Below, piece by piece: positions 7,215 through 63,973 of a stretch of 64,000 nt of DNA. Every line of letters begins with the position of its first letter. The stretch's first letter is position 1. A model generated the notes under the pieces. The model was not told the DNA's origin and did not search any database. It saw only the letters and a list, made by a program, of their open reading frames with translations. This DNA is from Methylocaldum szegediense (GTDB lineage Bacteria; Pseudomonadota; Gammaproteobacteria; Methylococcales; Methylococcaceae). The stretch is taken from assembly GCF_949769195.1 (NCBI RefSeq), contig NZ_OX458333.1, positions 2,728,001-2,792,000 on the forward strand, given 5' to 3'. A program made the translations under genes and the position numbers.

Positions 7215-7215
7215 C

Positions 7216-46463: not shown

Positions 46464-48029
46464 CTACCGCTTTTGCCCAGGATCCGCTTCGAAAAACGAG
46501 ATACCCTGGGCCAGCGGCAAGCCCTCACCCCAATTGATGGTGTTGGTCTGGCGCCGCATATACATCTTCCAAGCATCGGAGCCCGCTTCGCGGCCGCCTC
46601 CGGTATCTTTTTCGCCGCCGAATGCTCCACCGATTTCCGCGCCCGAAGTGCCCGCGTTGATATTGGCGATGCCGCAGTCGCTGCCCGAAGCCGACAGGAA
46701 TCGCTCGGCCGCTCGGAGATTCAGGGTGAACAGTGCGGAGGACAAACCGTGCGCCGCGTCGTTCTGCATGGCGATGGCCTCCTCTAAATGGCGGTAGCTC
46801 ATCACGTACAAGATAGGCGCGAAGGTTTCCCGCTGGACAACATCCCAGTGGTTTTCCGCCCGGATCAGCGTGGGTTCCACGAAGCAGCCGGGCCGCTCAA
46901 GCACCCGTCCGCCGTAAAGGACTTCACCGCCTTGACGGCGGGCTTCTTCCACGGCCTGGCGATACGCCTCGACCGCCGTCTGGTCGATGAGGGGGCCCAT
47001 GAGGGTCGAAGGGTCCAGGGGATCACCGACCCGCACCTGAGCGTAAGCTTTGACGAGACGGTCGATCAGTTCGTCATAGATGCTCTCGTGGACGATCAGC
47101 CGCCGAATGCTAGTGCAACGCTGGCCGGCCGTGCCCACGGCGCCAAACAGAATGGCCCGGACCGCGAGATCGAGGTCGGCGGTCTCGTCGACGATGACGG
47201 CATTGTTGCCGGACAATTCTAGGAGACTCCGCCCTAGCCGTTCCGCGACTTTCACCGCGACCTGGCGGCCCACGGCCGTGGAACCGGTGAAGGAGATCAG
47301 CGGTAGCCGCCTATCGCAGACGAAGTGGTCCAGCAGCTCCGGATTTTCCGGCAAGAAGCAGGAGAAAATACCCGGATACCCCATCTCCGCCGTGACTCGA
47401 TCGCATAGGCGCTGAACCGCCACGGTGCAAAGAGGGGTCTTCGGGGAAGGCTTCCACACCACGGTATCGCCGCACACCGCCGCGATAAAGGCGTTCCAAG
47501 ACCACACCGCCACCGGGAAATTGAAACCGGTGATGACGCCCACCGGCCCGAGCGGATGCCATTGCTCGTACAGGCGGTGCCCGGGGCGCTCGGAAGGCAT
47601 GGTGATGCCGTATAGCATGCGCGACAGCCCGACGGCATAATCAGCCATGTCGATCATCTCCTGCACCTCGCCGTCCGCTTCCGCCTTGATCTTGCCCGCT
47701 TCCAGGGCAATCAGGCTGCCCAATGCGTCCTTGTGTTCGCGCAGCACATCGCCGATTCGACGCACCAGTTCGCCGCGCTTGGGCGCCGGAACCAGGCGCC
47801 ATTCCTCGAAAGCTCTCTTGGCTTCTTCCATCACGGTTTCATACTGGGCTTCCGAACACAGCGTGACCTCGGCGATAACCTCGCCCGTGGCCGGGTTGTA
47901 CGATTTCAGACGCGGAGCATTCGGAGCTTCCAGCCAGCCTTCATAGGCGGCGTAGCTACCGATATTGACGTCCTGAAGGTGCAAAATCTCGAACAGTCGA
48001 TTCCGGGAAACGATTTCGTAGGTGTGCAT
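46464..48029 (-). CDS. amaB: L-aminoadipate-semialdehyde dehydrogenase (ALDH7/AmaB type)
   Basis: A 521-residue aldehyde dehydrogenase of the antiquitin (ALDH7) class, expected to oxidise 2-aminoadipate 6-semialdehyde to 2-aminoadipate with NAD+. [22 protein letters not shown] with the catalytic cysteine, [19 protein letters not shown] and [10 protein letters not shown] are ALDH7 signatures that separate it from betaine or succinate-semialdehyde enzymes. Start ATG 48029 with AGGGAG upstream. It is divergent from an HglS-like gene, and with the saccharopine/lysine dehydrogenase-like gene it forms a lysine catabolism set. Confidence 0.88.
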
Positions 48030-48286
48030 AGGCAACTCCCTGTCGAGGCGCAGCGCCTCGTTCCGGTTGGATTCGGGGCGGGAGGAAGAGGTTCGGGCGA
48101 ACGGATGCGTTCCTCAACCTTCCGAGACTTCGGCTGTCTAAAGGTGTATTCTGACCCAAATTCGGCATCCATCCCAATCCCTTTCCGCATGGAATCGAGC
48201 CCAAGCTGCGGTGGCGGTTGCCGAATGCTTGGCTGACGCTGTCCAGCCGCTAGTCATATCTCCTACAAAGGCTGAGAGGTCCTGCA

Positions 48287-49480
48287 ATGTCCAATCTACA
48301 CGATGACCTTGCCCACGACCTAGTCCGCGAAGTACTTGCGGGTCCCACCACCCTCCGCGCCGACCCGGATCATCCCGGCAAGCTTCTGGTGCCGCGCCCC
48401 GACGGCCGGATGGCCGGCATCGACTTGACGCCTTTCGAGGCAGAGCCGCAGCCGATGACCGCTGGCCATTATTTTCACGGGATCAAGACCGTCGACGGCT
48501 TGCTGACAGCCTATCGCGACGCTCGGCGGTCGAAGCCATTCGAAGAAGACTTATCAGGCGCGATGGAGCATGTGGATCCCTACGCCCACGAGTTTCTGGA
48601 TGGCCTGCTGGCCCGTGCCCGCAGTTTTCTTAGCGATGCCGACGCGAAGCTGATCGGCGATTGGGTCGGCCAGTTCGACGTCTACGTAGCAGTCAAGGCG
48701 GTCGAATCGCTGCTTTACAGCCAGGCCGACCTGACCTTACTGAAAATCGCACCGCGCTTTGGCTGGACGGTCCATTTCGATCATCTCGCGATCCGCTGCG
48801 GCTCAGCCGCACGTGGCGACGCCGAACGGGTCGTGGAGAACCTGCGCCGCCATCACGGCTATGTACCCTCACAGGTCGAAGGCGAGGACTTCTACCAGTT
48901 CGAGGATGGTTGGAACGCCTACGTGCTTTACAAGATCCTGGAAAACGGGCAAGTGCTGCGGCTGTTCATCGATCAGTCGGATGCCGATAATCCCACCCAG
49001 ATCATCCAGCACTGGAACCACGTTTACGGCTATACCGCCCACCATCTTGCGATCCGGGCGACGCGGTTCGAAGAAGGACGGCGGGTCGCGGTCGGCCTGT
49101 CCAAGCTCATGCATACCTTGGAAGCAGAAGGCGTCGCCATCATGACCCCGACGGGCGATTACACCGATCGCTTGCTGTTGCAGGTGTTTACTCGGCCGGA
49201 ACGGAACCGCGAGATTCCACAACGGATTCGGGAGGCATTGAAGTCCTACGGCGCGGATTTGGAAACCGTGATCGAGAACGCGAAGCTCCTGGAACTGGTG
49301 TCGCGCCGCGAAATGAGCCCGGCGCTGGCCGAGCGGTTTTTCGCTCTGTACGATATTCCGTACGAGCCTGACAATCCGCTCCATTCCGCCCCGATCTACA
49401 ACTATTTCCTGCCGGAACAGGCGGCCCACGTCATTCGCACCTCGGTGCAGGGCGAAGGCGTAGCTGCGGCCAACCGATAG
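48287..49480 (+). CDS. hglS: HglS-like (DUF1338) 2-oxoadipate dioxygenase/decarboxylase
   Basis: A 397-residue protein of the HglS/DUF1338 family with a VOC-like fold. HglS is an Fe(II) enzyme that turns 2-oxoadipate into D-2-hydroxyglutarate. Probable metal ligands: His166 (FDHLAIRC) and His252/253 (YTAHHLAIR). The C-terminal YNYFLPEQAAHVIRTS parallels the FLP..AA.I..S block of HglS. The third ligand is unclear, perhaps Gln299 or a nearby glutamate, and the protein is shorter than P. putida HglS (about 460). The neighbours (ALDH7, lysine dehydrogenase-like, FAD/Fe-S D-2-hydroxyacid dehydrogenase) fit the route exactly. Family call fairly sure; function inferred. Confidence 0.72.
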   Translation: MSNLHDDLAHDLVREVLAGPTTLRADPDHPGKLLVPRPDGRMAGIDLTPFEAEPQPMTAGHYFHGIKTVDGLLTAYRDARRSKPFEEDLSGAMEHVDPYAHEFLDGLLARARSFLSDADAKLIGDWVGQFDVYVAVKAVESLLYSQADLTLLKIAPRFGWTVHFDHLAIRCGSAARGDAERVVENLRRHHGYVPSQVEGEDFYQFEDGWNAYVLYKILENGQVLRLFIDQSDADNPTQIIQHWNHVYGYTAHHLAIRATRFEEGRRVAVGLSKLMHTLEAEGVAIMTPTGDYTDRLLLQVFTRPERNREIPQRIREALKSYGADLETVIENAKLLELVSRREMSPALAERFFALYDIPYEPDNPLHSAPIYNYFLPEQAAHVIRTSVQGEGVAAANR

Positions 49481-49483
49481 AAA

Positions 49484-49507: not shown

Positions 49508-49816
49508 ATGAGGGACTGACACCCTGGCCGTGCCTTGCGATCGATGCGGCTTGCGAAAGCCACCGCATCCTTCGGATTGAAAAGGAACAGGACCGTGAGC
49601 TGGTTCCCGTGCGAGTGGGCAGGCAGCGGTTGCACCCGACCGCTGAAACCGGTAGAAGAACGATTGGCGGAAAGCGATGAGGCGTTACTACGCCATCGAG
49701 GCGGTTGAACTCCGTTGCTGGGTTTAAGGACGCGCTGTTCCTGAAACCGAAGGACGGCCGTCGATATCCTAAGTGACGGACAAAGGGAAGGTATGGCATT
49801 CCACGGAGAAAAACGT

Positions 49817-50905
49817 ATGCGACACGTGTTCGTGCTCGGCGCCGGCACTATCGGCTCCTTGATCGCCGGTCTCCTTTCCCGCTCCGGCGACTATGCCGTC
49901 TATCTGGCCGATCACGACGAAAACGCCCTGAAGCGGGCTACCGAAGATGTCGACAGGCAAAACCTGACCACCTTCACCTTGGAGGCGATCCAAGGAAGCG
50001 GGTTACGCCATGCCTTGTCGGATTACCCATGCGAGGCAGTCATCTCCGCTTTGCCGTATTACTGCAATCCGCTCGTGGCCGAATACGCCCGTGAAACGGG
50101 TCTCCATTATTTCGATCTTACCGAAGACGTCGCCGTCACCCGCTACATCCAGGACCTCAGCCAGGGCGCGGAAACCGCTTTTGTCCCGCAATGCGGCCTC
50201 GCACCCGGCTTCGTCAACATCGTGGCGAACGACCTGATGGGACACTTCAAGGAACTCGACACCGTAAAGCTACGGGTCGGTGCGCTGCCGGTGCACCCCA
50301 GCAACGCTCTTAAATACTCGCTGACCTGGTCCACCGACGGCTTGATCAACGAATACAGCAATTTCTGCTATGGCCTCGAAGACGGGCGCGAAGTCGTCCT
50401 GATGCCGCTGGAAGGTTACGAAACCATCGAAATCGACGGGCTACTCTACGAGGCTTTCAACACCTCGGGCGGCCTCGGCACCTTAGCCGATACCTACAAA
50501 GGCCGGGTCAAGACGCTGAACTACAAGACCCTGCGCTATCCCGGCCACTGCGAGAAAATTCATTTCCTGATGCGCGACCTCAAGTTGAACCAAGACCGGG
50601 AAACCCTCAAGCGCATCCTCGAAAACGCGATCCCCAAGACCGCGCAGGACGTAGTGCTGATCTACGTCTCGGTCAGCGGCAAGCAACGCGGTGAGTTGTA
50701 CGAAGAGAACTACGTGAAAAAAATTTATCCTCAGACGATCCATGGAAAGCTGTGGTCGGCCATACAGGTGACCACCGCATCCGCCGTCTGCGCGATCGTC
50801 GATCTGGTCTTGAGCCAACCTGAACACTACCGAGGCTTCGTGAAGCAGGAGAGCTTTCGGCTGGAAGACTTTTTGGAGAACCGGTTCGGGAAGTATTACC
50901 GGTAA
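49817..50905 (+). CDS. Lysine 6-dehydrogenase / saccharopine dehydrogenase family enzyme
   Basis: A 362-residue NAD(P)-dependent oxidoreductase. The Rossmann motif FVLGAGTIGSLIAGLL opens it; CGLAPGFVNIVANDL, GALPVHPSNALKYSLTWSTDG, FNTSGGLGTLADTYKG and LNYKTLRYPGHCEK are shared with lysine 6-dehydrogenases (which oxidise lysine directly to aminoadipate semialdehyde) and with saccharopine dehydrogenases. The length (about 360-390) suits lysine 6-dehydrogenase, so I lean to that. Either enzyme would feed the ALDH7 gene. Start placed at 49817 because GGAG lies 9 bp upstream; 49793 is an alternative. Confidence 0.8.
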   Translation: MRHVFVLGAGTIGSLIAGLLSRSGDYAVYLADHDENALKRATEDVDRQNLTTFTLEAIQGSGLRHALSDYPCEAVISALPYYCNPLVAEYARETGLHYFDLTEDVAVTRYIQDLSQGAETAFVPQCGLAPGFVNIVANDLMGHFKELDTVKLRVGALPVHPSNALKYSLTWSTDGLINEYSNFCYGLEDGREVVLMPLEGYETIEIDGLLYEAFNTSGGLGTLADTYKGRVKTLNYKTLRYPGHCEKIHFLMRDLKLNQDRETLKRILENAIPKTAQDVVLIYVSVSGKQRGELYEENYVKKIYPQTIHGKLWSAIQVTTASAVCAIVDLVLSQPEHYRGFVKQESFRLEDFLENRFGKYYR

Positions 50906-50944: not shown

Positions 50945-52075
50945 TCAAATCAACGTCGGCAAACGCACCACGAATTCGCTGCCTTTGCCGGGGCCCTGAC
51001 TGCTCACTTCCACTCGCCCCCCGTGCATGCCTACGATGTTTCGCACAATGGTCAAGCCTAATCCAAGGCCGCCCTTGGCGCGGTCCAGGGTGCTTTCGGC
51101 TTGAATGAAAAGGTCGAACAAATGAGGCAGCAAATCTTGTGCGATTCCCTCGCCGCTATCCCTCACGGAAATGACCGCTTCTCCATTTTCACGGGTTGCG
51201 CGCAACCAGATCCGACCGCCTTCCGGCGTGTACTTGGCGGCATTGTCGAGCAGGTTTGCAATGACCTGCGTCAGACGTACGTTGTCCCCGTTTACCCTCA
51301 CCGGTTCAGGCGGTACGGAAACTGTGAGCGTATGACGGCGAAGTTCGATGAAGGGTCGACTTTCTTCAACGGCGTGCTCGATCAGGGTGGCGACATCCAC
51401 GTCTGTTTTTTGCAGCGTCAGCTTTCCCTGCACGATGCGCGATACATCCAACAAATCATCGACCAGCCGCGTCAGGTGATTCACCTGTCGTGCAATGACT
51501 TCTCTCGCCCAGTGCAGCTTGGGGTCTGAGCCATCGAGTCGCTGCATGATGGTGACGGCGTTGCGGATGGGCGCCAAAGGATTGCGGAGTTCGTGGGCGA
51601 GCATGGCGAGGAATTCGTCCTTGCGCCGGTCGGCCTCTCGTAGCGCCGCCTCCGCCTGTTTACGCTCGGTAATGTCCTGGACGATACCGACCCCGAATAG
51701 TGGCTGCCCCTGCTCGTCGCGAACGATATAACCATTGAGCTCGATCCACACGATATGCCCGTTCTTGTGGATGTAGCGTTTTTCTACCCTGTAGGGGAAT
51801 TCCACGTGAGCTTGGCGCCGAAGGGCTTCAACATCGGCGACGACATCATCGGGATGCGTGATGTCTTGGAAACGCTTGGTGAGCAGTTCTTCGCGCGTAT
51901 ACCCCGTAATTTCACAAAAGCGGTCGTTGACACGAAGGTAATGGCCTTCCAGATCGATTTCACAGATACCGACGGGGGCCTGGTCTTGAACGATGCGAAG
52001 TCGCTCGGCTTGCATCCGCATGGTTTGTTCGGCTTCACGGACCGAACGGAGGATATCTGGGATGGTATCGGCCAT
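50945..52075 (-). CDS. PAS-domain hybrid-type sensor histidine kinase
   Basis: A 376-residue cytosolic kinase. One PAS domain (about 25-140: VPVGICEIDLEGHYLRVNDRF-like, ending VGIVQDITERKQ), then the HisKA phosphorylation helix with FLAMLAHELRNPLAPIRNAV, and an ATPase with VIANLLDNAAKYTP, VRDSGEGIAQDLLPHLFDLF and GLGLGLTIVRNIV. No membrane segment and no response regulator nearby, so an orphan kinase. It converges on the lysine dehydrogenase-like gene. Confidence 0.88.
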   Translation of the reverse strand: MADTIPDILRSVREAEQTMRMQAERLRIVQDQAPVGICEIDLEGHYLRVNDRFCEITGYTREELLTKRFQDITHPDDVVADVEALRRQAHVEFPYRVEKRYIHKNGHIVWIELNGYIVRDEQGQPLFGVGIVQDITERKQAEAALREADRRKDEFLAMLAHELRNPLAPIRNAVTIMQRLDGSDPKLHWAREVIARQVNHLTRLVDDLLDVSRIVQGKLTLQKTDVDVATLIEHAVEESRPFIELRRHTLTVSVPPEPVRVNGDNVRLTQVIANLLDNAAKYTPEGGRIWLRATRENGEAVISVRDSGEGIAQDLLPHLFDLFIQAESTLDRAKGGLGLGLTIVRNIVGMHGGRVEVSSQGPGKGSEFVVRLPTLI

Positions 52076-52325: not shown

Positions 52326-55253
52326 TTAGAACCGTTCCCGGAACATCTGCAACCCTATCGCCATGCCTATAACTTCGACAGGATGATAAGCCCGCACTCC
52401 CAGTCCGTCGGCGATCTGGCGGCGGCAGCTGGTACCAGGCGCTACGATGAGAGTATCGGTTCCAGCCTCGCGGATGGCGGGAAACAGCACCAGTTCGGCG
52501 ATGTCCAGCGAGACGGCATAGTGCTCCTTCTCGTAGCCGAAAACGCCGGCCATGCCGCAGCACCCGGAGGGAATGGGCTGAACGTCTACGCCCGGAATCA
52601 GGGATAGCGCCTTCAAGAGCGGCTGCATGCCGACTAGCGATTTTTGGTGGCAATGGCCGTGCACCAGCAGCGTCTTGCCCTTGAGTGCATCGCCGAACGG
52701 ATTTTCGTCTAACCGCCCGATCTCCCGTTCGACGAATTCCTCGAAAGTCAGGGTGCGATCCGCCACCACGCGAGCCTTTTTCCTAAGCTCCTCGCCCTGC
52801 AGCAAATCCGCCGCTTCGTCGCGGAAGGTCAGGATTTCCGAAGGTTCCAGGCCGATGATCCAGCGGCCCGTCACCGCCCACGGATATAGCCGCTCGACGG
52901 TCCGGCTCAGCCGTTTCCGGGCGCCGCGCAAGAGGCCCTGGCTGATCTGTATTCGCCCGGATTCGAGACAGGGCGTTGCCGCCATGCGAATCCCGAGCCG
53001 TTCCAGGACTTCATATGCCGCGATGGCCAATCGGGGTTCGTAGTATTCGGTGAAGGGATCGTTGAACAGCAAGACGTCTCCGCGCCGACTGGCTGGTTCG
53101 GCGCTATGCCGCCGTTTCAGCCATCGGCTGAAAGGCTCGTCGGCAAGCGGCGGCATGGGACGCTCCGGATAAAAACCCAGCCGCGATTTAACCCAGATCT
53201 GCGCCAGCAGGCGATTGGACAACGCGGGCGCGAAGCCCGCGATACGGCTGAGCCGGCCGAAGTTCCCTACGATCCACGCCCGCCACGGCACGCCGGATCG
53301 GTCGTAATGCTGCTGCAGGAATTCCGCCTTCATGCGGGCCATGTCCACGTTGGCCGGGCATTCCGATTTGCAGCCCTTGCAGGCCAGGCAAAGATCGAGG
53401 ACTTCCCTAAGCAACTCGCGATTCGTCGCCGTCCAGGGTTCGGGGCTGTCCAGGACCTGCCGGAAGACATTGGCGCGGCCGCGGGTGCCGTGTTTTTCTT
53501 CCCGTGTCGCCATATAGGACGGGCACATCGTGCCGCGCCCGGCGCTCTTCAAGCAGGCCCCGGCGCCATTGCATTTGGAAGCGGCGATTTTTAAGCCGGC
53601 TTCGCGGCTCCAATCGAAATAGGCGGCAACCGGTTTCCCGTTCTCCTGGGCCCGGAGATCCGAAAGCAGCGGCGGAGGGTCGAAGATCTTGTGCGGGTTC
53701 AAAAGATCGTGAGGATCGAAGGCGTCCTTAATCCGGCGCAAGAGTCCGTAAAGCTCTTCGCCCAGCATAGCGGGCAGATAAGGCGATCTCAGACGGCCAT
53801 CGCCATGCTTGGCGCTGATCGTCCCGCCGAAATGGATCACCTCGTCGAACACCTCTTCGAGGATGCGCTGGTAAAGACGCTTTCCGTCCCGGCTACTCAG
53901 ATCGAGCAAGGGGCGTAAGTGCAGTAGGCCTCGCCCGGCCGGGCCGAAAACGACGCAATCGACGCCGTGGCGAGCCATGATCGCGAGCACGGCCTCGGCA
54001 TAAGCAGGCAGATCCTTCACCGCAACCGCGGTATCCTCGATGCCGGTAACGGCCTTGACCGGACCCGGCAGCCCCATGAGCAAACCCAATCCCGCCGCGC
54101 GCAGGGCCAGAGCCCGTTCCCGAAGCGGCGAATCGAGCACCTTGCGGGCATAGCCCAGGTTCCGCGAATGCAATTCGGCCATCAGGCCTTCGATCGCGGC
54201 GTTGACCTCATCGCCGGTTTCATCGACAAAATCGATCAGCAGCACGGCGGCGGGATCGCCCTCGATCCAGAACCGATTCCGCTGCTGCTCCAGATTGGTC
54301 TTGGTGAGTGCCAGGATATGCTGGTCCACCAATTCCAATGCCGCTGGCTGATAGCCCAGCGCCACGGCGACTGCCGAAAGCGCTTGCAAAAGGCTGTCGA
54401 ATTGGACGCAGACCAAACGGCGTCGGACAGGCAGCGGCACGAGCCCGACTTCGATTTCAGTGACGAGAGCCAAGGTCCCCTCGCTGCCACACAGCAATCG
54501 GGCCAGATTGAAAGGCGGTCCCCGCGACTCCCAGGGCTGCCCGAGCGCCAACACGTCCAGGGAATAGCCCGCATTGCGCGGAATGCCGTCGGGGCGGGGA
54601 AAGCGGTCGAGAATCAGCGTCCGATGGCGATCGATCGTCTCGAACACGGCGCGGTAAATCCGCCCTTCCAGATTGGCTAGCGCCAATTTGTCCCGAAGCT
54701 GGCTGTCGTTCAGAGGTCCGAACCGGACTACGGAAGCGTCGATCAGTACCGCCTCGACGGACAGCAGGTGATCCCGTGTCGTGCCGTAGCGCAGAGCATG
54801 GCTGCCCCAGGCGTTGTTGCCGAACATGCCGCCAATGGTGCAACGGTTGGCCGTGGAGGGATCGGGAGCGAACATCAGCCCGAGCGGGCTCAGCGCATCG
54901 TTGAGATCGTCGCGGATCACGCCCGGCTGGATCCGTGCCCGCCGTCGCTCGGGGTCGATCGAAACGATGCTATTCATGTGGCGGGTGACATCGATCACCA
55001 GGCCGTCGCCGACGCATTGCCCTGCCAGACTGGTTCCCGCCGCACGGGGAATCAGCGGCAGTCGTTCCTGGGCAGCGAATCTCATCAGCGTCACGCAATC
55101 GTCCCGGTACTTGGGCCGCGCCACAGCCAGAGGCATCTTCTGGTGGGGCGAAGCGTCCGTGGCGTAAAGCAGGCGCGAGAGCCGGTCGGTCAAAAGCTCC
55201 CCTGCGAGCGACCGGCTCAGCGTCAGGAGTGTTGAAGGCGGTTCGGATGTCAT
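52326..55253 (-). CDS. FAD/Fe-S D-2-hydroxyglutarate dehydrogenase, YdiJ type
   Basis: A 975-residue fusion of an FAD-binding oxidase and an iron-sulfur reductase. N-terminal FAD half: PRAAGTSLAGQCVG, NRCTIGGMFGNNAWGSHALRYG, LCGSEGTLALVTEIE. The middle carries SAKHGDGRLRSPYLP, the oxidase C-terminus. Next come cysteine motifs for [4Fe-4S] clusters (CNGAGACLKSAGRGTMCPSY, CLACKGCKSECP) and at the end CCG-type motifs (HGHCHQKSLVGM, SGCCGMAGVFGYEKEHY). YdiJ of E. coli is a D-2-hydroxyglutarate dehydrogenase. Located next to the HglS-like gene, it would convert D-2-hydroxyglutarate to 2-oxoglutarate. Start chosen at 55253. Confidence 0.8.
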   Translation of the reverse strand: MTSEPPSTLLTLSRSLAGELLTDRLSRLLYATDASPHQKMPLAVARPKYRDDCVTLMRFAAQERLPLIPRAAGTSLAGQCVGDGLVIDVTRHMNSIVSIDPERRRARIQPGVIRDDLNDALSPLGLMFAPDPSTANRCTIGGMFGNNAWGSHALRYGTTRDHLLSVEAVLIDASVVRFGPLNDSQLRDKLALANLEGRIYRAVFETIDRHRTLILDRFPRPDGIPRNAGYSLDVLALGQPWESRGPPFNLARLLCGSEGTLALVTEIEVGLVPLPVRRRLVCVQFDSLLQALSAVAVALGYQPAALELVDQHILALTKTNLEQQRNRFWIEGDPAAVLLIDFVDETGDEVNAAIEGLMAELHSRNLGYARKVLDSPLRERALALRAAGLGLLMGLPGPVKAVTGIEDTAVAVKDLPAYAEAVLAIMARHGVDCVVFGPAGRGLLHLRPLLDLSSRDGKRLYQRILEEVFDEVIHFGGTISAKHGDGRLRSPYLPAMLGEELYGLLRRIKDAFDPHDLLNPHKIFDPPPLLSDLRAQENGKPVAAYFDWSREAGLKIAASKCNGAGACLKSAGRGTMCPSYMATREEKHGTRGRANVFRQVLDSPEPWTATNRELLREVLDLCLACKGCKSECPANVDMARMKAEFLQQHYDRSGVPWRAWIVGNFGRLSRIAGFAPALSNRLLAQIWVKSRLGFYPERPMPPLADEPFSRWLKRRHSAEPASRRGDVLLFNDPFTEYYEPRLAIAAYEVLERLGIRMAATPCLESGRIQISQGLLRGARKRLSRTVERLYPWAVTGRWIIGLEPSEILTFRDEAADLLQGEELRKKARVVADRTLTFEEFVEREIGRLDENPFGDALKGKTLLVHGHCHQKSLVGMQPLLKALSLIPGVDVQPIPSGCCGMAGVFGYEKEHYAVSLDIAELVLFPAIREAGTDTLIVAPGTSCRRQIADGLGVRAYHPVEVIGMAIGLQMFRERF

Positions 55254-55351
55254 GGCGGATGAACTCGTTGACTGGTTAGACCAGGAATAGGCCTGTAGGT
55301 TAGGGGGGTCCAAGAAGCTACTGCTCGGTCGGTTACGGAAGCCGGGATTTC

Positions 55352-55515
55352 GTAGGGTGGGTTAGGTGCGCATGAGGAGCGCCTTTCCGTTTTCCGCTGG
55401 CTTGGATGCGCACCGTAACCCACCGGAAAGAATGCCGCCCTGATGGGTTATGACGCGCACGACGGCTGCGGGAAACTTGTAGGTCTTTGGGTATGCGCGC
55501 CTAATCCGCCCTACC
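55352..55515. mobile_element. MITE-like element with terminal inverted repeats
   Basis: About 164 bp with near-matching inverted ends: GTAGGGTGGGTTAGGTGCGC at the left and, read on the other strand, GTAGGGCGGATTAGGCGCGC at the right. Such GTAGGGTGGGTTAG elements are non-autonomous repeats in many proteobacterial genomes. No coding capacity. It lies in the divergent gap between the YdiJ-type dehydrogenase gene and the kynurenine operon. Target duplication is not clear. Confidence 0.65.
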
Positions 55516-55589: not shown

Positions 55590-56390
55590 ATGGGAGCGTT
55601 CTCGATGGGATTACTGGAAGGTAAAAGGGCGCTGGTGTGCGGCAGCAGTCAAGGGATAGGCCGGGCCATCGCCCTGCATTTCGCGGAACAGGGCGCCGAG
55701 GTCATTCTCCTCGCCCGCAACGAGGCGGCCTTGAAGCACGTCTGCGGCGAGCTCGAAACCGAGCACGGGCAGAAGCATTGCTATCTGGTAGCCGATTTCA
55801 GTCAGCCCGATCGCCTGAGGCAGATCCTGGAAGAGCGGCTGCCGGAACTCCTTCCCATACACATCCTGGTCAACAACACCGGCGGACCGCCCGGCGGGCT
55901 TCTGTACGAGGCTCGGATCGAGGAATTCACGGAAGCCTTCAACCGCCATCTCGTCTGCAGCCATATCCTGGTCCAAGCCCTGCTCCCCGGCATGGAAAGT
56001 TTGAACTATGGCCGGATCATCAACATCGTTTCGACCTCGGTCAAACAGCCGATTCCGGGGCTCGGCGTCTCGAACACGGTGCGCGGCGCCATGGCCAACT
56101 GGGCCAAGACCTTGGCGGGAGAGCTCGCGCCTTTTGGCATCACCGTGAACAACATCCTTCCGGGAGCGACCGAGACGGCGAGGCTGCGGGCCATCATGGA
56201 AGCCAAGGCCCGGAGCTCGAACAAATCCATCGATGACGTGGTCGAACAGACTAAACGCTCGATTCCGCTGGGCCGTTTCGCAAAGCCCGAAGAAATCGCC
56301 TACGCGGCGGGCTTTCTCGCGTCCGATCTGGCTTCCTATATCACCGGGATCAACCTGCCCGTCGACGGGGGACGTACGATGAGCTTGTAG
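55590..56390 (+). CDS. Atypical SDR oxidoreductase, first gene of the kynurenine operon
   Basis: A 266-residue short-chain dehydrogenase. The cofactor motif is normal (LVCGSSQGIGRAIALHFAEQ) and so is NNTGGPPGG, but where SDRs have the catalytic YxxxK it reads S-N-T-V-R (GLGVSNTVRGAMANWAKTLA). Other SDR proteins with SNxxR exist and are often called FabG-like. The C-terminus (RFAKPEEIAYAAGFLASDLA, GINLPVDGG) is standard. Two bp upstream of the aminomuconate-semialdehyde dehydrogenase gene. It may reduce a 2-aminomuconate-derived intermediate, but that is inference. A second possible start is 55605. Confidence 0.8.
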   Translation: MGAFSMGLLEGKRALVCGSSQGIGRAIALHFAEQGAEVILLARNEAALKHVCGELETEHGQKHCYLVADFSQPDRLRQILEERLPELLPIHILVNNTGGPPGGLLYEARIEEFTEAFNRHLVCSHILVQALLPGMESLNYGRIINIVSTSVKQPIPGLGVSNTVRGAMANWAKTLAGELAPFGITVNNILPGATETARLRAIMEAKARSSNKSIDDVVEQTKRSIPLGRFAKPEEIAYAAGFLASDLASYITGINLPVDGGRTMSL

Positions 56391-56392
56391 GT

Positions 56393-57838: not shown

Positions 57839-57863
57839 GGAAGGCAACCCCCTATTCGAATCG

Positions 57864-57898
57864 CCCTCACCCCAACCCTCTCCCAGAGGGAGAGGGAG
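57864..57898. repeat. REP-like palindrome A
   Basis: CCCTCACCCCAACCCTCTCC followed by a short loop and GGGAGAGGGAG; it forms a small stem. Lies between the aldehyde dehydrogenase and RidA genes. The same unit occurs at 58932-58965 (inverted), 59316-59350 and, doubled, at 62361-62440. Confidence 0.8.
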
Positions 57899-57931
57899 CT
57901 CTTTGCTATTTGATTTCCGAGGATAGCGCGC

Positions 57932-58351
57932 ATGGCAGGTGAGCGTATCGACTCTGAAAAAGCACCGGAACCCGTAGGGCTCTATCCCCATGCGAGACGA
58001 GTGGGGAATCTCTTGTTCCTGTCCGGCATCGGGCCGAGAAAACGCGGCAGCAAAGCGATTCCGGGCGTCGAGCTGGACCAGGACGGGAACATCGTGGCCT
58101 ACGATATCGAAGCGCAGTGCCGCTCGGTGTTTGAAAACGTCCGCCTGATCCTCGAGGAAGCGGGCTCCCATTGGGACAATCTGGTAGACGTCACCGTTTT
58201 TCTGACGAATATGGAAAAGGATTTTCCGGCTTACAACCGGCTCTACGCGGAATACTTCAGGACCAATCAGCCCTGCCGGACCACCGTCGAAGTGTCGCGG
58301 CTGCCGACCCCCATCGCGATCGAGCTGAAATGCATCGCGACCATCGAATGA
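57932..58351 (+). CDS. RidA family 2-aminomuconate deaminase
   Basis: A 139-residue RidA/YjgF protein. In the kynurenine pathway the RidA-type deaminase converts 2-aminomuconate to 4-oxalocrotonate (2-hydroxymuconate) plus ammonia. LYPHARRVGNLLFLSGIGPR and FLTNMEKDFPAYNRLYAEYF are family features; the arginine near the C-terminus in CRTTVEVSRLPTPIAIELKC contacts the substrate carboxylate. Similar to NbaF/AmnD. Preceded by a weak ribosome site after REP A. Confidence 0.88.
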   Translation: MAGERIDSEKAPEPVGLYPHARRVGNLLFLSGIGPRKRGSKAIPGVELDQDGNIVAYDIEAQCRSVFENVRLILEEAGSHWDNLVDVTVFLTNMEKDFPAYNRLYAEYFRTNQPCRTTVEVSRLPTPIAIELKCIATIE

Positions 58352-58366
58352 AAGCGGAGAACCGCC

Positions 58367-58879
58367 GTGAGAGAACTCAAGCCTTTCAACTTCCGCGAGT
58401 GGATAGACCAACACCGCCATCTGCTCAAGCCCCCGGTTTGCAACAAACAGGTGTTCGAGGACGCGGAATTCATCGTCATGGTGGTGGGCGGCCCCAACCG
58501 CCGCAAGGATTATCACTACGACGAAGGCGAGGAGTTCTTCTACCAGATCGAGGGCGACATGGTTCTCAAGATTATGGAGGACGGGAAACCCAAGGACATC
58601 CACATCCGGGAAGGCGACATCTTCCTGCTACCGCCGCGCGTCCCCCATTCCCCCCAGCGCTTCGCCGACACGGTGGGACTGGTCATCGAGCGGAAGCGAA
58701 GACCATCGGAAAAGGACGGTCTCCTCTGGTACTGCGACAACTGTTCGACCTTGCTCTACGAGGAATATTTCCATCTCGAAAACATCGAGAAAGATTTGCC
58801 CCCGGTTTTCGAGCGGTTCTATTCGAGCGAGCAAAACCGGACGTGCAAGAAGTGCGGGATGGTGATGGAGGTGCCTTGA
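58367..58879 (+). CDS. nbaC: 3-hydroxyanthranilate 3,4-dioxygenase
   Basis: A 170-residue cupin dioxygenase that opens the ring of 3-hydroxyanthranilate, giving 2-amino-3-carboxymuconate semialdehyde (ACMS). Iron ligands: His50, Glu56 and His94 in [15 protein letters not shown] and PPRVPHSP. The C-terminal rubredoxin-like pair Cys123/Cys126 and Cys160/Cys163 (CDNC, CKKC), typical of the bacterial enzyme, holds a second iron. Start is GTG at 58367. The next operon gene, ACMS decarboxylase, is 520 bp away because a DUF559 gene lies between them. Confidence 0.95.
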
Positions 58880-58931
58880 ATACACACTCATTTAATCCGT
58901 AGGCTGCGCACGTTACGTCCGCCCCTCAGTT

Positions 58932-58965
58932 CCCTCTCCTTTCGGGAGAGGGTTAGGGTGAGGGG
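58932..58965. repeat. REP-like palindrome B (inverted)
   Basis: CCCTCTCCTTTCGGGAGAGG followed by GTTAGGGTGAGGGG, the reverse complement of the A-type unit. It forms the left border of the DUF559 gene. Confidence 0.85.
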
Positions 58966-58987
58966 ATCAAAACTAGGTTTTCTTCCG

Positions 58988-59365
58988 ATGAAACAACTGG
59001 CGAGATCGCTACGAAAACAACAGACCAACGCGGAAAAATTATTGTGGAGCCGGTTGAGAAACCGCCAGCTACAAGGTTGCAAATTCCGCCGGCAACAACC
59101 CATTGGCCCCTACATCGCAGACTTCCTCAGCCTAGAACCGAAGCTGATCATCGAACTCGATGGTGGGCAGCATGCCGAACAACAGGAACAGGATAATCAG
59201 CGAACCCGATACTTACACGCTTTGGGTTATCGGGTGTTGCGATTTTGGAACCACGAAGTACTAAACGATCTTGATGCGGTGTTGGAGGCAATTCGGATTG
59301 CCATAGTTGTTCGATCCCCTCACCCCAACCCTCTCCCGGAGGGAGAGGGAGCAAAGGCGGTTTGA
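58988..59365 (+). CDS. DUF559 family endonuclease-like protein
   Basis: A 125-residue protein of the DUF559 family, whose fold is like very-short-patch (Vsr) and PD-(D/E)XK endonucleases. Key features: [37 protein letters not shown], and [20 protein letters not shown] with the acidic and glutamine positions. The last ~17 residues ([17 protein letters not shown]) are encoded by the REP palindrome C itself, so gene and repeat overlap. Sits in inverted REP brackets between nbaC and ACMSD genes, with no role in kynurenine metabolism. Start ATG 58988 preferred over the GTG at 58958, which lies in repeat B. Confidence 0.85.
59316..59350. repeat. REP-like palindrome C
   Basis: CCCCTCACCCCAACCCTCTC followed by CCGGAGGGAGAGGGA. 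It overlaps the 3' end of the DUF559 gene and is in opposite orientation to palindrome B. Confidence 0.85.
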
Positions 59366-59399
59366 ACAAAGCTCGTCAGTGAGCGAGTGGAAAGTAGAC

Positions 59400-60410
59400 A
59401 TGCTCAAAATCGACATCCATACCCACATCCTCCCGAAGAACTGGCCCGATCTTCGCGAGCGGTATGGCTACGGCGGATTCATTCAGCTCGATCATTACCG
59501 CCCGGGCTGTGCCCGCATGCTGAGGGACGGCGAATGTTTCCGGGAAATCCGGAGCAACTGCTGGGATGCCGGGACCCGGCTCAAGGACTGCGATGAATTC
59601 GGCGTGCAGGTTCAAGTGCTTTCTACCGTGCCGGTCATGTTTTCCTATTGGGCGAAACCGGAGCATACCCTTGACCTTTCGAAACTGCTGAACGACCACA
59701 TCGCCGGCGTCGTCGCCGAGTTTCCCAAACGCTTCGTAGGGCTGGGCACCCTGCCCATGCAGGCGCCTGACCTCGCCGTCCGGGAGCTGGAGCGTTGCGT
59801 CCGGGAGCTTAAATTGGCCGGAGTCGAAATCGGCACGCACGTCAACGGCTTCAACCTGAACGAGACGCTCTTCTTCCCTGTCTACGAGGCAGCGGAAGAC
59901 TTGGGAGCGGCCATATTCGTCCATCCTTGGGACGTTCTCGCTAACGAGCGGATGAAGAAATACTGGCTGAGCTGGCTGGTCGGCATGCCTGCGGAAACCG
60001 CCCTGGCTATCTGCTCGATGATCTTCGGCGGCGTCTTCGAGAAGTTTCCGCGGCTTCGGGTGGCGTTCGCCCATGGCGGCGGGGCGTTTCCAGGCATTTA
60101 CGGCCGTATTCAGCACGGTTTCGAGGTGCGTCCTGATCTTTGCGCCGTGGACAATCCAGTTGGGCCGAGCGAATACCTGGGGCGCTTCTATGTGGACTCG
60201 TGCGTCAACGACCCCCGCCTCTTGCAGTGTCTGATCGGTCTCCTAGGCGAGAACGCAATCGCCCTCGGTTCCGACTATCCGTTTCCGCTGGGAGAGCTTC
60301 AGCCCGGCAAGATGATCGCCGAGATGGCGCTGCCGCAATCGACCAAGGCGCGGCTGTTTCACGGCACCGCCCTGGAATGGCTCGGCATGACAGCGGAATC
60401 CTTCACATGA
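59400..60410 (+). CDS. nbaD: 2-amino-3-carboxymuconate-6-semialdehyde decarboxylase (ACMSD)
   Basis: A 336-residue zinc amidohydrolase-fold decarboxylase that removes CO2 from ACMS, steering it away from quinolinate. Metal ligands: His7, His9 (IDIHTHI), His175 (FVHPWD), His225 ([11 protein letters not shown]) and Asp292 (GSDYPF); the expected arginine is in [19 protein letters not shown]. Length and sites match the Pseudomonas enzyme with a constant offset of -2. Start ATG 59400 avoids translating the REP C unit; the stop overlaps the next start. Confidence 0.95.
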
Positions 60411-61225
60411 CCGCCGTCGATTTCCATATTGGGCCACGGGTCTACCGAATCGATTCGTCGAACTACTTCGACCTGTCCATACCCGTCGCTTTCGACGGCG
60501 CAGGACTCAGCGCCTTCGGCCTACCGCCCGCCGGCGTGAGCACGGTGGAGAACGCCTGGTTCGTTGGAGACACCCGGCGCGGTGGCAGTTGCAACGTGAA
60601 GGAATACCAATTCATTCCCCACTGCCACGGCACCCATACGGAATGCGTGGGCCATATCGTCGATCAGGAAGTGTTGGTTACCGAAATTCTGAAGGATGCC
60701 TGGATTCCGGCCACCCTGATTTCCGTGAAAGTCGAAAACGGCGCGGACTGCCCGGAAACCTACATCCCACACAAGGCCGACGACGATAGGCTCATTACCC
60801 GGCGAACGCTCATCGAAAAGCTAACGAGTCTGGACGACGAAGACTTTCACCAAGCCCTCATCATCCGCACGCTCCCCAATTCACCGTCCAAACGAACATG
60901 GCGCTATGTCACAGCGCCTTATTTTTCCAATGAGGCCGTGGCGGAAATCGTCCGCCGCGGCGTGGAACATCTCTTGGTGGATATTCCGTCGGTCGATCGC
61001 ATGGAAGACGAGGGACGGCTGTCGAATCATCGCCTTTTCTGGGAGCTGCCGCCAGACGCCCACGATTTGAATCTCTGCAAAGCGCCTTTTCGAACGATTA
61101 CCGAGTTCATCTTCGCGGCCGACAACATTCCGGACGGTTATTGCCTGCTCGAGCTTCAAGTCGCGCCTTTTCTTGGCGACGCAGTGCCCAGCCGGCCCCT
61201 GGTCTACCCCGTGGAGGTTCCATGA
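60407..61225 (+). CDS. kynB: Kynurenine formamidase (cyclase family, variant motif)
   Basis: A 272-residue cyclase-family protein, placed in the kynurenine operon, so likely N-formylkynurenine formamidase. The usual metal motif HxGTHxDxPxH reads [11 protein letters not shown] here (Cys73, His77, Glu79, His83), so one histidine is cysteine and an aspartate is glutamate. A similar [11 protein letters not shown] form, as I recall, occurs in other operon-borne cyclase proteins of Bacteroidetes; this comparison is from memory. Alternative: a different amide hydrolase. The start overlaps the ACMSD stop, and the stop overlaps kynU. Confidence 0.75.
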
Positions 61226-62610
61226 GGTTCGAAGCCCACCGATCACTCGCCGAAGCGATGGACCGCGCCGACGCGCTCGGTTCCTATCGGGATTGCTTCT
61301 ATATTCCGAAACGGCAAGACGGCTCGGAAGAGATCTATTTCTGCGGAAATTCCTTGGGCCTTCAGCCGAAATCGGCGCGGAACTACGTGGACGAGGTACT
61401 GGTGGCCTGGAAGCGCATGGGTGTGCGGGGCCACTTCGAAGGAGACCGTCCCTGGCTGCCTTACCATGAATTCGCGACCGAGAAGCTGGCCCGGCTGGTG
61501 GGCGCCCTGCCGGTCGAAGTGGCGGCGATGAATTCGCTGACGGTCAACTTGCATCTTCTGATGGTGAGCTTTTACCGTCCGACGCCGGAGCGCCACAAAA
61601 TCCTCATCGAGGAGCACGCTTTTCCCTCGGACCGCTACGCCGTGGCATCCCAGATCGCTTTTCACGGCTTCGATCCGGACGAATCGCTGATCGAGGCCAA
61701 GGCACGTCCGGGCGAAGCGACTCTTCGCACGGAGGACGTACTGGAGCTCATCGAACGGGAAGGCGACGACATCGCGCTGATCCTGTGGCCGGGAGTACAG
61801 TTCTACACGGGGCAAGCCTTCGCTATGGCCGAAATTGCCGAGATCGGGCACCGGAAAGGCTGCGTGGTCGGTTTTGATCTGGCCCATGCTGTGGGCAATC
61901 TGGTCTTGAAATTGCACGACTGGAACGCGGATTTCGCCGTCTGGTGTTCCTACAAATATCTGAACGCGGGACCCGGTGCGGTTGCCGGTTGCTTCGTGCA
62001 CGAGCGTCATGCCGAGCGCTTTGATCTTCCCCGTTTTGCCGGCTGGTGGGGGCACAACAAGTCGACCCGTTTCGTCATGCCGGCGAGATTTAGCCCTTTG
62101 CCCGGCGCCGAGGGCTGGCAGTTGAGCAACCCGCCCATCCTTTCCCTGGCACCTTTGCTCACTTCATTGGAGCTGTTCGATCAGGTGGGAATGGATGCAC
62201 TGCGAGCGAAGTCGGAAAGCTTAACCGGTTATCTGGAGACTTTGTTAAAAGAGTGCTGTGAAGACCGGATCACCATTCTCACCCCGTCCGAACCCAGCGC
62301 CAGGGGCTGTCAGCTTTCGATCAGGCTGAAAGGGAATGGCGGAAAGATGCCCTCTCTAGGCCCTCACCCCCTGCCCCTCTCCCAGGGGGAGAGGGGGGGT
62401 CATGTCCCTCTCCCCCTGGGAGAGGGATTTAGGGTGAGGGACGACAAACGCGGCAAGAAGGTCTACGACGCTTTAATCGCCTCCGGAATTACTTGCGATT
62501 GGCGCGAACCCGACGTGATCCGCGTGGCGCCGGTTCCGTTTTACAACCGCTATACCGAGGTCTTCGATTTCGTGGAGCGGCTTAAGGGAGTGATCGACAA
62601 TGAAAGATAA
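61222..62610 (+). CDS. kynU: Kynureninase with an in-frame REP insert
   Basis: A 462-residue PLP enzyme that splits 3-hydroxykynurenine into 3-hydroxyanthranilate and alanine. The PLP lysine is Lys245 in WCSYKYLNAGPG; NSLTVNLHLLMVSFYRP and FDLAHAVGN are other family blocks. Typical length is about 420-430; here about 33 extra residues (376-408, PSLGPHPLPLSQGERGG and following) come from a REP palindrome pair inserted in frame (62361-62440). The core continues normally with KVYDALIASGITCDWREPDV. It may still be active if the insert falls in a surface loop. Start ATG 61222. Confidence 0.93.
   Translation: MRFEAHRSLAEAMDRADALGSYRDCFYIPKRQDGSEEIYFCGNSLGLQPKSARNYVDEVLVAWKRMGVRGHFEGDRPWLPYHEFATEKLARLVGALPVEVAAMNSLTVNLHLLMVSFYRPTPERHKILIEEHAFPSDRYAVASQIAFHGFDPDESLIEAKARPGEATLRTEDVLELIEREGDDIALILWPGVQFYTGQAFAMAEIAEIGHRKGCVVGFDLAHAVGNLVLKLHDWNADFAVWCSYKYLNAGPGAVAGCFVHERHAERFDLPRFAGWWGHNKSTRFVMPARFSPLPGAEGWQLSNPPILSLAPLLTSLELFDQVGMDALRAKSESLTGYLETLLKECCEDRITILTPSEPSARGCQLSIRLKGNGGKMPSLGPHPLPLSQGERGGHVPLPLGEGFRVRDDKRGKKVYDALIASGITCDWREPDVIRVAPVPFYNRYTEVFDFVERLKGVIDNER
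62361..62440. repeat. Double REP-like palindrome D, inside kynU
   Basis: Two units face to face: CCCTCACCCCCTGCCCCTCT-CCC...GGGGGAGAGG and CCCTCTCCCCCTGGGAGAGG-GATTTAGGGTGAGGG. It stays in frame and is translated as part of kynureninase. Confidence 0.9.
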
Positions 62611-63973
62611 GGAAATCACCCTCGTCGGCGGCGGACTCGCCGGGTGTCTGCTCGCCGTTTTCCTGGCCCGGCGCGGGTTTCCCGTTCGGGTTTTCGAGCG
62701 CCTGCCGGACATGCGCAAACACCCGATCCCGGCGGGCCGCTCGATCAATCTGTCCTTGTCCGCTCGCGGCATTCATGCCCTAAAGGAAGCCGGTCTGTAT
62801 GGCGAAGTCGAAAGGCATCTGGTCGCCATGCCGGGCCGTATGATTCACGACCGAGAGGGCAATCTGCTCTATCAGCCTTATGGCCGCGACGAATCCGCCG
62901 TCCATTATTCGGTGGAAAGAGCCGTGCTCAACAAGATCCTGCTTGATGGGGCCGAGGCCGCCGGAGCGCAGTTATTTTTCGGCGAAAAATGCGAGGGGCT
63001 GGATTTCAGCGACCGTTTCCTGCAACTCTATCGGGAAGCGGACGGCTACCGGCGCACCCTCCCCTTCGAAACCGTGATCGGCACCGACGGCGCGGGCTCG
63101 GCGGTGCGCCGGGCGATGATCGTTCAGAAAGGCATCGACTGCCGCGACGAGCATCTGCCGCACGGCTACAAGGAACTGGTCATTCCGCCGAAGCCCGACG
63201 GTGGGTTCGCGTTGGAGAAGAATGCCCTGCATATCTGGCCGCGCGGCGGGTTCATGCTGATCGCCCTGCCCAACCGAGACGGCAGTTTTACCGCTACCTT
63301 GTTCCTGCCGCATTCGGGTCCCGAGAGTTTCCGGACGCTAATGGACGAACAGGCCATCCTGCGCTTTTTCGCGACCGAATTTCCCGACGTGCTTCCCCTG
63401 ATGGCCGACCCGGTTCATGATTTCCTGAACCGTCCCACCGGGACACTGGGCACGATCCGCTGCTTTCCCTGGCATGTCGCCGACAAGGCGCTGATCCTGG
63501 GCGATGCCGCCCATGCGGTGGTGCCTTTTCATGGGCAAGGCATGAACTGCGCTTTCGAGGACTGCGTCGTCCTCGACCGGCTGCTCGACGAACACGAGGA
63601 CTTCGAAAGCCTTTATCGCGACTTCGAGGCCCGCAGGAAGCCGAACGCAGAGGCCATTGCCGACATGGCATTGGAAAACTACGTGGAGATGCGTGATGCC
63701 GTCCGCGACCCCAAGTTTCACTTGCGCAAGCACATCGAGTGGCTGCTTGAGGAGCGTCATCCCGGCCGGTTTATCCCGCGCTACGCCATGGTCATGTTTC
63801 ACCGCATTCCCTATGCCGTCGCCCAGAAGCGGGGCGACATCCAGGCCGAGATCATTGACCGGTTGTCGGAATCCATAAACCGCGTGGACGATGTGGACCT
63901 CGATCTGGCCGACCGGCTCGTCGCGGAAAGCTTGGAACCCTTGGCTTCACAGGCCGCGTACGATCTCCGATAG
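62600..63973 (+). CDS. kmo: Kynurenine 3-monooxygenase
   Basis: A 457-residue FAD aromatic hydroxylase that turns kynurenine into 3-hydroxykynurenine with NADPH and O2. VGGGLAGCLLAVFLARRG binds FAD, INLSLSARGIHALKEAGL is family-specific, GTDGAGSAVRRAM and LGDAAHAVVPFHGQGMNCAF complete the FAD pocket. The C-terminal helices (about 380-450) contain the membrane-associated region of eukaryotic KMO but no clear membrane segment here. Starts 11 bp before the kynU stop. The last gene of the operon within the window; it ends 27 bp before the right edge. Confidence 0.95.
   Translation: MKDKEITLVGGGLAGCLLAVFLARRGFPVRVFERLPDMRKHPIPAGRSINLSLSARGIHALKEAGLYGEVERHLVAMPGRMIHDREGNLLYQPYGRDESAVHYSVERAVLNKILLDGAEAAGAQLFFGEKCEGLDFSDRFLQLYREADGYRRTLPFETVIGTDGAGSAVRRAMIVQKGIDCRDEHLPHGYKELVIPPKPDGGFALEKNALHIWPRGGFMLIALPNRDGSFTATLFLPHSGPESFRTLMDEQAILRFFATEFPDVLPLMADPVHDFLNRPTGTLGTIRCFPWHVADKALILGDAAHAVVPFHGQGMNCAFEDCVVLDRLLDEHEDFESLYRDFEARRKPNAEAIADMALENYVEMRDAVRDPKFHLRKHIEWLLEERHPGRFIPRYAMVMFHRIPYAVAQKRGDIQAEIIDRLSESINRVDDVDLDLADRLVAESLEPLASQAAYDLR

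Follow-up and report, generated by a model that had tools for sequence, protein, structure and literature searches.

A set of genes related to lysine breakdown and an operon for tryptophan breakdown through kynurenine were found side by side in the DNA examined here, a stretch of 64,000 nucleotides (the window; bases 2728001-2792000 of contig C1) from a genome of 4.9 Mb (Table 1). The first-pass annotation of this DNA had proposed that the carbon of both amino acids converges on 2-oxoadipate, with an unusual short-chain dehydrogenase/reductase (SDR) at the head of the kynurenine operon acting in place of an absent meta-cleavage tail (NbaG-J), and with an HglS-like enzyme and a YdiJ-type dehydrogenase finishing both routes. 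Our analysis strengthened the part of this interpretation in which the SDR is the reductase, while the shared finish was found not to be general and is a possibility for the genome at hand. All of the named lysine and kynurenine genes exist as open frames with matching families. The lysine set is ordered P6CDH (-), HglS-like (+), LysDH/saccharopine-dehydrogenase-like (+), PAS kinase (-), and YdiJ-like (-); the kynurenine operon (55590-63973) follows in the order SDR, AMSDH, RidA, HAO, DUF559 gene, ACMSD, KynB, KynU, and KMO. The two sets are 276 bp apart, measured from the end of the longest YdiJ-like frame (55313) to the SDR start (55590). The sets had been described as separated only by a PAS kinase and a MITE-like element; an element with imperfect 22-nt inverted repeats does occupy the gap, whereas the PAS histidine kinase lies inside the lysine set and is probably unrelated to the pathway. 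The gene content, the families, and the adjacency of the sets were in this way borne out, with the position of the kinase and the naming of the HglS-like and YdiJ-like proteins corrected. The nearest named relative was Methylocaldum sp. 14B (locus L011; 92% identity over the ACMSD query 59475-60410), as found by an ACMSD protein search that may omit records very close to the window's own genome. In strain 14B, the YdiJ-like gene and the kynurenine operon are in the same order as in the window, and the HglS-like, LysDH-like, and P6CDH genes are on the same-numbered contig, adjoining them. The window also holds a methane/ammonia monooxygenase subunit C gene, and its source is probably a methane oxidiser.

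Table 1. Features of the adjoining lysine and kynurenine gene sets, with positions numbered along the window.
Feature	Position	Strand	Evidence
L-piperidine-6-carboxylate (aminoadipate-semialdehyde) dehydrogenase, P6CDH	46464-48035	-	NF050084, 772.6 bits, over equivalog cut-off 730
HglS-like protein, divergent VOC fold	48287-49480	+	Predicted fold, motif spacing, gene neighbours
L-lysine 6-dehydrogenase (LysDH) or saccharopine dehydrogenase-like enzyme	49793-50905	+	PF03435, PF16653; PDB 3abi, E 3e-20 (best full-length PDB match)
PAS histidine kinase	50945-52075	-	HisKA, HATPase_c, and PAS domains; between LysDH-like and YdiJ-like genes
YdiJ-like FAD/Fe-S dehydrogenase	52326-55313	-	NF049975, 541.7 bits, under equivalog cut-off 1350
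Short intergenic element, imperfect inverted repeats (MITE-like)	55352-55514	.	22-nt arms, 86% complementary; chance not estimated
Atypical SDR, candidate 4-oxalocrotonate / 2-aminomuconate reductase	55590-56390	+	Active-site residues; co-occurrence with the ACMSD type
2-Aminomuconate semialdehyde dehydrogenase (AMSDH)	56393-57838	+	Closest NCBIfam TIGR03216, 587 bits, under cut-off 693
RidA-family protein	57932-58351	+	PF01042; 42-43% identical to RidA of two tail-bearing nba clusters
3-Hydroxyanthranilate 3,4-dioxygenase (HAO)	58367-58879	+	NF009763, 281 bits, cut-off 220
DUF559 protein	58958-59365	+	PF04480; between HAO and ACMSD
ACMSD	59400-60410	+	PF04909; 92% identical in Methylocaldum sp. 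14B
KynB-like kynurenine formamidase (cyclase family)	60407-61225	+	PF04199 (scanned from 60428); ATG at 60407
Kynureninase (KynU)	61222-62610	+	TIGR01814, 466 bits, cut-off 246
Kynurenine 3-monooxygenase (KMO)	62600-63973	+	FAD_binding_3; relatives near KynU in many ACMSD loci

The components of an nba-type upper pathway (HAO, ACMSD, AMSDH, and deaminase) are all present in the operon, with the RidA-family protein a probable 2-aminomuconate deaminase of the NbaF kind by sequence similarity. Tryptophan 2,3-dioxygenase is not among the genes of the operon. The HAO, ACMSD, AMSDH, and RidA families are shared with the nba clusters for meta-cleavage of 2-nitrobenzoate and 3-hydroxyanthranilate on plasmids of Vibrio nigripulchritudo (L091) and Polaromonas JS666 (L092), whose chemistry is the same as that of the window operon down to 4-oxalocrotonate. 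From this point the systems differ: the two nba clusters carry NbaG-J and have no SDR match in the stretches read, whereas the window has the SDR and no tail, and its ACMSD is only about 38% identical to theirs.

The absence of the tail was examined in the genome as a whole. For NbaI (4-hydroxy-2-oxovalerate aldolase, TIGR03217), the best match in the own genome scored 86.9 bits against a cut-off of 286; weak matches of this kind were detected in all 14 control genomes as well, none of them over the cut-off. A search with PF01557 recovered just two FAA-hydrolase proteins from the own genome, of which one is of the YcgM type (158 bits to NF007967, cut-off 201) and the other (locus L106) is clustered with homogentisate-dioxygenase-like and GST-like proteins and is probably a fumarylacetoacetase. 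Judged by the family and neighbours of these proteins, no NbaG/NbaH-looking protein was found in this genome. The same pattern was found in other genomes with the window's type of ACMSD, as NbaI exceeded the cut-off in only one of 58 (own genome 0/1; genomes of ACMSD relatives 1/50, namely Microbulbifer taiwanensis; further ACMSD-type genomes 0/7). The 50 relatives were taken from 80 ACMSD loci (L025 not included), 48 of which are at least 20 kb long and 18 less than 12 kb, and none of the 80 had an NbaI or NbaJ match. Many of these genomes are metagenome bins, and single gene absences are therefore weak. One locus (L090, Schleiferiaceae) encodes an NbaG/NbaH-like FAH protein (7077-7838) directly downstream of AMSDH and has no SDR, which elsewhere is located upstream of AMSDH; no NbaI over the cut-off was detected in the genome of this locus. 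The claim that the tail is absent was upheld in the own genome for NbaI and for NbaG/NbaH-type proteins. Consistent carriage of nbaG-J by operon genomes had been named beforehand as what would refute the proposal; assessed through NbaI, it was not observed. Overall, the evidence that the tail has been replaced is strong.

As a sample with less bias, a draw of 369 gammaproteobacterial genomes was searched for HAO. Matches were detected in 24 genomes, 16 of them strong (E < 1e-40) and 8 weaker ones dropped; the regions around 15 strong HAO genes were read besides the window, and ACMSD was sought only beside strong HAO. Eight genomes had the window's ACMSD type next to HAO (G000, G028, G040, G174, G181, G310, G338, and G417), with ACMSD identities of 53-69% in the seven other than the own genome. 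The remainder included: (i) one genome of the nba type with NbaG-J (G072); (ii) two with HAO and an nba-like RidA on short contigs (G093 and G214); and (iii) five with HAO and no ACMSD in the stretch read (G012, G165, G167, G324, and G325). An NbaI match over the cut-off was found in G072 and in G165; the eight ACMSD-type genomes had none. The G028 contig is identical to L025, from Chromatiales bacterium USCg_Taylor.

The SDR was found to be distributed with this ACMSD type. When up to seven candidates were scored per genome, SDR matches at E 1e-55 or better were detected in 7 of the 369 genomes, comprising six of the eight ACMSD-type genomes and only one (G148) of the 361 others, a co-occurrence with a hypergeometric P of 6e-11 (2e-9 without the own genome), relatedness not being corrected for. 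In three of these genomes (G310, G174, and G417), the SDR and AMSDH genes are paired on one contig, with HAO and ACMSD on another. Among the 80 ACMSD loci, the SDR was present in 44, and in 34 of the 41 that have AMSDH with at least 1 kb upstream; it is on the AMSDH strand in all 35 loci with both genes, and the match ends are no more than 100 bp apart in 22 of these. On plasmids, the best SDR matches among those listed were about 42-43% identical.

The active site of the SDR was examined in an alignment of 45 rows, the window SDR and 44 operon SDRs. Classical SDRs have an N-S-Y-K catalytic tetrad, with the Tyr and Lys used by those that reduce carbonyls. The operon SDR departs from this tetrad: S148, S161, and R165 are present in 45/45 rows and H120 in 44/45 (Leu in the remaining row), with S161 and R165 in the Tyr and Lys columns and H120 in the Asn column, as determined against control chains (2p68, 2hq1, and 3o4r) that show Y and K. 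In a PDB sequence search, the best match was 5va8, followed by 6jh7, which we take to be AerF, and then by 1o5i and 2z1n; 5va8, 1o5i, and 2z1n share the S/S/R arrangement with the kynurenine SDRs. The reaction of BacG is a conjugate C=C reduction whose substrate, a 2-oxo-3-enoic acid, resembles 4-oxalocrotonate in its chemistry. AerF and BacG/YwfH (3u49), SDR reductases of aeruginosin and bacilysin synthesis, likewise have an SDR fold that lacks the catalytic Tyr and Lys, with G/S/N and G/N/N, respectively, where the kynurenine SDRs carry S/S/R. AerF is termed an alkenal double bond reductase in a reference title (PMC10143770), and BacG is described in a passage of PMC9147277 as a reductase forming epoxy-4S-H4HPP. 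A single-sequence structure model of the SDR was unusable (pLDDT 41). Three observations speak for the SDR as the candidate reductase: it co-occurs with the ACMSD type across genomes, it lies next to AMSDH, and its active site differs from the one seen in carbonyl-reducing SDRs. The evidence that it replaces the tail is good but circumstantial, and that for its exact reaction is moderate.

On the lysine side, the HglS-like protein was examined as the candidate for the exit from 2-oxoadipate, and it is a probable 2-oxoadipate dioxygenase/decarboxylase on the strength of its modelled fold, motif spacing, and neighbours. It matched no Pfam or NCBIfam family at E 0.001, a sequence search of the PDB returned nothing significant, and PF07063 (DUF1338), the family of HglS, had no hit in the own genome. 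An AlphaFold model computed from nine sequences (pLDDT 84, pTM 0.88) was of the VOC fold, as Foldseek returned methylmalonyl-CoA epimerase first (E 1.5e-5) and then HPPD, with TM-scores over the whole query of about 0.3. The metal ligands of HglS are given in a passage of PMC7286885 as His70, His226, and Glu294, with Arg74 as the specificity residue. In the HglS-like protein H166, R170, H252/H253, and E305 are invariant in 9/9 sequences, and H166 and R170 keep the His-x3-Arg spacing of HglS. In a profile alignment with four DUF1338 proteins (only E 0.016, 2.8% probability), the two His motifs fell in register and the Glu lay outside the aligned part. No detectable match of the HglS-like profile to YdcJ was found, which is a weak test of family since the control comparison of the four DUF1338 proteins with YdcJ gave only E 0.1. 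The HglS-like protein resembles HglS of Pseudomonas putida and YdcJ of E. coli in its predicted VOC fold and its lysine neighbours, and its conserved His/His/Glu with an Arg at His+4 may correspond to their metal triad and specificity residue; it differs from them in having no detectable match to PF07063, to YdcJ, or to any PDB sequence. The label of HglS-like enzyme stands on the fold, the motif spacing, and the gene neighbours.

The HglS-like protein was detected in 8 of 229 genomes of the class draw, the own genome included (the search did not extend to G310, G338, and G417). Four of the seven others have LysDH-like and P6CDH genes beside it (L111-L114, with P6CDH relatives 61-67% identical), and a fifth (L110) has a YdiJ-like gene (44% identical) plus a partial LysDH-like match at the contig edge. 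L114 also has an FAD-linked oxidase, and at both L110 and L114, out of the seven, the HglS-like protein is accompanied by an FAD-linked dehydrogenase of the 2-hydroxyacid type. The remaining two loci, L109 (G028) and L108 (G174), show no lysine genes in the stretch read, and both genomes carry the ACMSD operon; neither has a LysDH-like match in its incomplete assembly (93% and 90%, respectively), and P6CDH is present in G028 with no match above 32% in G174. The neighbours are mostly lysine genes, and the home of the HglS-like protein is therefore lysine breakdown. It was found together with the ACMSD operon only in two Methylocaldum-type genomes and two of the USCgamma family; the overlap of three in the draw of 229 has a P of 3e-4, which becomes 0.08 when one genome is taken per family and the own genome is omitted, such that the association is weak.

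The other lysine enzymes are consistent with a branch that leads to 2-oxoadipate. P6CDH of at least 60% identity is present in seven of the eight ACMSD-type genomes, a count for which the background rate was not measured, and judged by sequence a lysine branch towards 2-oxoadipate appears to be common in ACMSD-type genomes whatever its exit. The LysDH-like protein shares its fold family with both L-lysine 6-dehydrogenase and saccharopine dehydrogenase; its best full-length PDB match is presumably an L-lysine 6-dehydrogenase (LysDH), and the gene product may be the same enzyme. The YdiJ-like protein, labelled YdiJ-type in the first-pass annotation, is a probable D-2-hydroxyglutarate dehydrogenase with a score below the YdiJ equivalog cut-off.

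From these observations we infer a route in which the known steps of KynB, KMO, KynU, HAO, ACMSD, and AMSDH would convert tryptophan-derived kynurenine to 2-aminomuconate, after which deamination, probably by RidA, would lead to 4-oxalocrotonate (2-oxohex-3-enedioate). The atypical SDR would stand in for NbaG-J at this point, reducing the C3=C4 double bond with hydride supplied by NAD(P)H, and the product would be 2-oxoadipate, as in animals. If this reaction is right, it follows that lysine and tryptophan carbon meet at 2-oxoadipate, and the HglS-like enzyme would be the most likely exit in this genome, producing D-2-hydroxyglutarate that the YdiJ-like enzyme would oxidise to 2-oxoglutarate. 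In operon genomes without HglS, 2-oxoadipate would most likely leave through glutaryl-CoA; a plasmid query for glutaryl-CoA dehydrogenase returned none so named among the 60 listed of 1476 records. Taken as a whole, with the SDR yielding 2-oxoadipate in place of NbaG-J and the HglS-like and YdiJ-like enzymes providing the exit in the own genome, this is the best explanation of the locus, and we advance it tentatively, with slightly more doubt than confidence. A broader form, in which the SDR represents an as yet unnamed oxalocrotonate / 2-aminomuconate reductase family that gives bacteria of several phyla an animal-like route via 2-oxoadipate, is conceivable and on balance doubtful; in this form, the route would be joined in Methylocaldum and a USCgamma family to a 2-oxoadipate dioxygenase that PF07063 does not detect, with 2-oxoglutarate as the end point of tryptophan carbon.

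The proposed step has counterparts outside bacteria. In the animal branch from kynurenine to glutaryl-CoA, a reduction to 2-oxoadipate is likewise proposed, and lysine breakdown joins at that compound too; we know of no gene assigned in animals to the reduction of 2-aminomuconate or oxalocrotonate to 2-oxoadipate. Compared with the animal branch, the window offers a specific SDR candidate, and its exit would be through HglS and D-2-hydroxyglutarate rather than glutaryl-CoA. An 'oxalocrotonate reductase' is named in a figure legend of a human review, and the step is drawn in human tryptophan maps (PMC12899273). For Aspergillus terreus, sections of PMC7842363 describe a cluster with HAO, ACMSD, and AMSDH, a deaminase gene in other species, and an SDR that is syntenic in some Aspergillus, and its authors propose a possible reduction of 2-oxo-3-hexenedioate to 2-oxoadipate (PMC7842363). 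That cluster is fungal, and its SDR is given as a syntenic gene and not as the reductase. In the open-licence literature, no paper was found among the matches listed that names a bacterial SDR or gene for the conversion of oxalocrotonate or 2-aminomuconate to 2-oxoadipate. The idea of 2-oxoadipate reduction and the SDR synteny are already in the Aspergillus work.

Several observations weigh against the proposed route. With respect to the SDR: (i) it has no match in the G028 assembly (93% complete), where the HAO contig ends just past AMSDH; (ii) G040 (99% complete; locus L133) has the ACMSD operon with neither SDR nor NbaI; (iii) G148 has the SDR with HAO not found, its SDR adjoining a metallophosphoesterase, probably ApaH; and (iv) the SDR is absent in 7 of the 41 loci with room for it. 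In G040, a protein of the same Pfam family as this metallophosphoesterase adjoins AMSDH, and because of this G148 may hold a relic. BacG scored no better than ordinary FabG chains in the PDB search, and we know of no function for 5va8, 1o5i, and 2z1n beyond their depositors' names. The idea that the kynurenine SDRs form one clade with AerF and BacG was rejected, as a 14-row tree with long branches does not join them; the likeness is therefore one of mechanism through shared loss of Tyr and Lys, and not of ancestry. With respect to the exit, the HglS-like protein is missing from 49 of 50 ACMSD-type genomes (the exception being Methylocaldum sp. 14B) and PF07063 from 47 of 51 (present in 4), and HglS was on these counts rejected as a general finisher of tail-less operons. 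Foldseek aligned the HglS-like model poorly with the DUF1338 structure 3iuz (E 6e-4 with TM 0.28 and rmsd 16.9). The adjacency of the lysine and kynurenine sets was found only in the two Methylocaldum-type genomes, the strain 14B LysDH-like match contains a TAG, and in G028 and G174 the HglS-like gene and the ACMSD operon are on separate contigs.

Other explanations were weighed. The SDR may work in the pathway on another substrate or bond, such as the carbonyl of 2-aminomuconate semialdehyde or 4-oxalocrotonate, or serve as a protective semialdehyde reductase, in which case the end product would not be 2-oxoadipate. The linkage to AMSDH fits the semialdehyde as well as its oxidation product, and no activity is known to us for the S/S/R-sharing structures; however, the Tyr and Lys of carbonyl-reducing SDRs are replaced in 45/45 rows, and a side reaction on the semialdehyde would leave 2-aminomuconate with no known exit in genomes that lack NbaI, and we regard this explanation as unlikely. 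A further alternative, which we give little credence, is that the tail is replaced by enzymes encoded outside the operon (an unrelated decarboxylase, hydratase, and aldolase), with the SDR in a minor or regulatory role. The Schleiferiaceae locus does indicate that other solutions exist, G040 has neither SDR nor NbaI, and the search for NbaJ covered the ACMSD loci rather than whole genomes; against this, the only FAA-hydrolase proteins of the own genome have other likely roles, and the SDR tracks the window's type of ACMSD. The operon might instead function in NAD synthesis or 3-hydroxyanthranilate detoxification, with 2-aminomuconate or picolinate excreted, since a probable methane oxidiser would not need full catabolism for carbon, and 5 of the 16 strong HAO genomes show HAO, KynU, and KMO with no ACMSD in the stretch read. 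ACMSD and AMSDH, however, divert carbon from quinolinate, and the conserved RidA and SDR add further steps, which together make this reading improbable.

The joining of the two sets is open to a different objection, namely that they are mere neighbours, the HglS-like and YdiJ-like enzymes serving lysine alone while tryptophan ends elsewhere, for example at glutaryl-CoA or as excreted 2-oxoadipate. This is a real possibility, though one that we lean against. The HglS-like gene accompanies LysDH-like and P6CDH genes in L111-L114; among the four genomes of these loci, G001 and G010 gave no HAO match, and G159 and G201 were not among the listed HAO matches. Nearly all ACMSD-type genomes manage without the HglS-like protein. 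Counter to this, G028 and G174 hold the HglS-like protein and the ACMSD type with no LysDH-like match, G174 also lacking a P6CDH match as noted above, and a cell bearing HglS would be expected to use 2-oxoadipate, once made, from either source. The claim that the HglS-like and YdiJ-type enzymes finish both routes is not general and is a possibility for Methylocaldum and the two genomes of one other family. If true, the proposed route through the SDR would account for the fate of carbon from kynurenine operons that lack the tail in several phyla, and the HglS-like proteins would form a second family of sequences with 2-oxoadipate dioxygenase activity, one overlooked by current profiles. With a single SDR that is widely conserved in bacteria and has a defined, odd active site, the reduction step, for which we know of no assigned gene, becomes directly testable.

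Minor features of the window and genome were also noted. The DUF559 gene is outside the pathway; its region (58924-59357) is flanked by 48-nt inverted repeats (85% complementary), the gene and repeats are possibly a small mobile unit, and the stretch aligns through in Methylocaldum sp. 14B. Compared with strain 14B (L011), KynU has a 39-residue in-frame insert (62335-62451) that holds a palindromic repeat (arms 62361-62395 and 62406-62440), with repeats of a similar kind at 57864 and 59317. Upstream of the lysine set, a second cyclase-family protein that is arylformamidase-like was detected at 42798-43691 (TIGR03035, 81.5 bits, cut-off 223). Elsewhere in the genome, the L106 cluster suggests that this probable methane oxidiser breaks down tyrosine as well.

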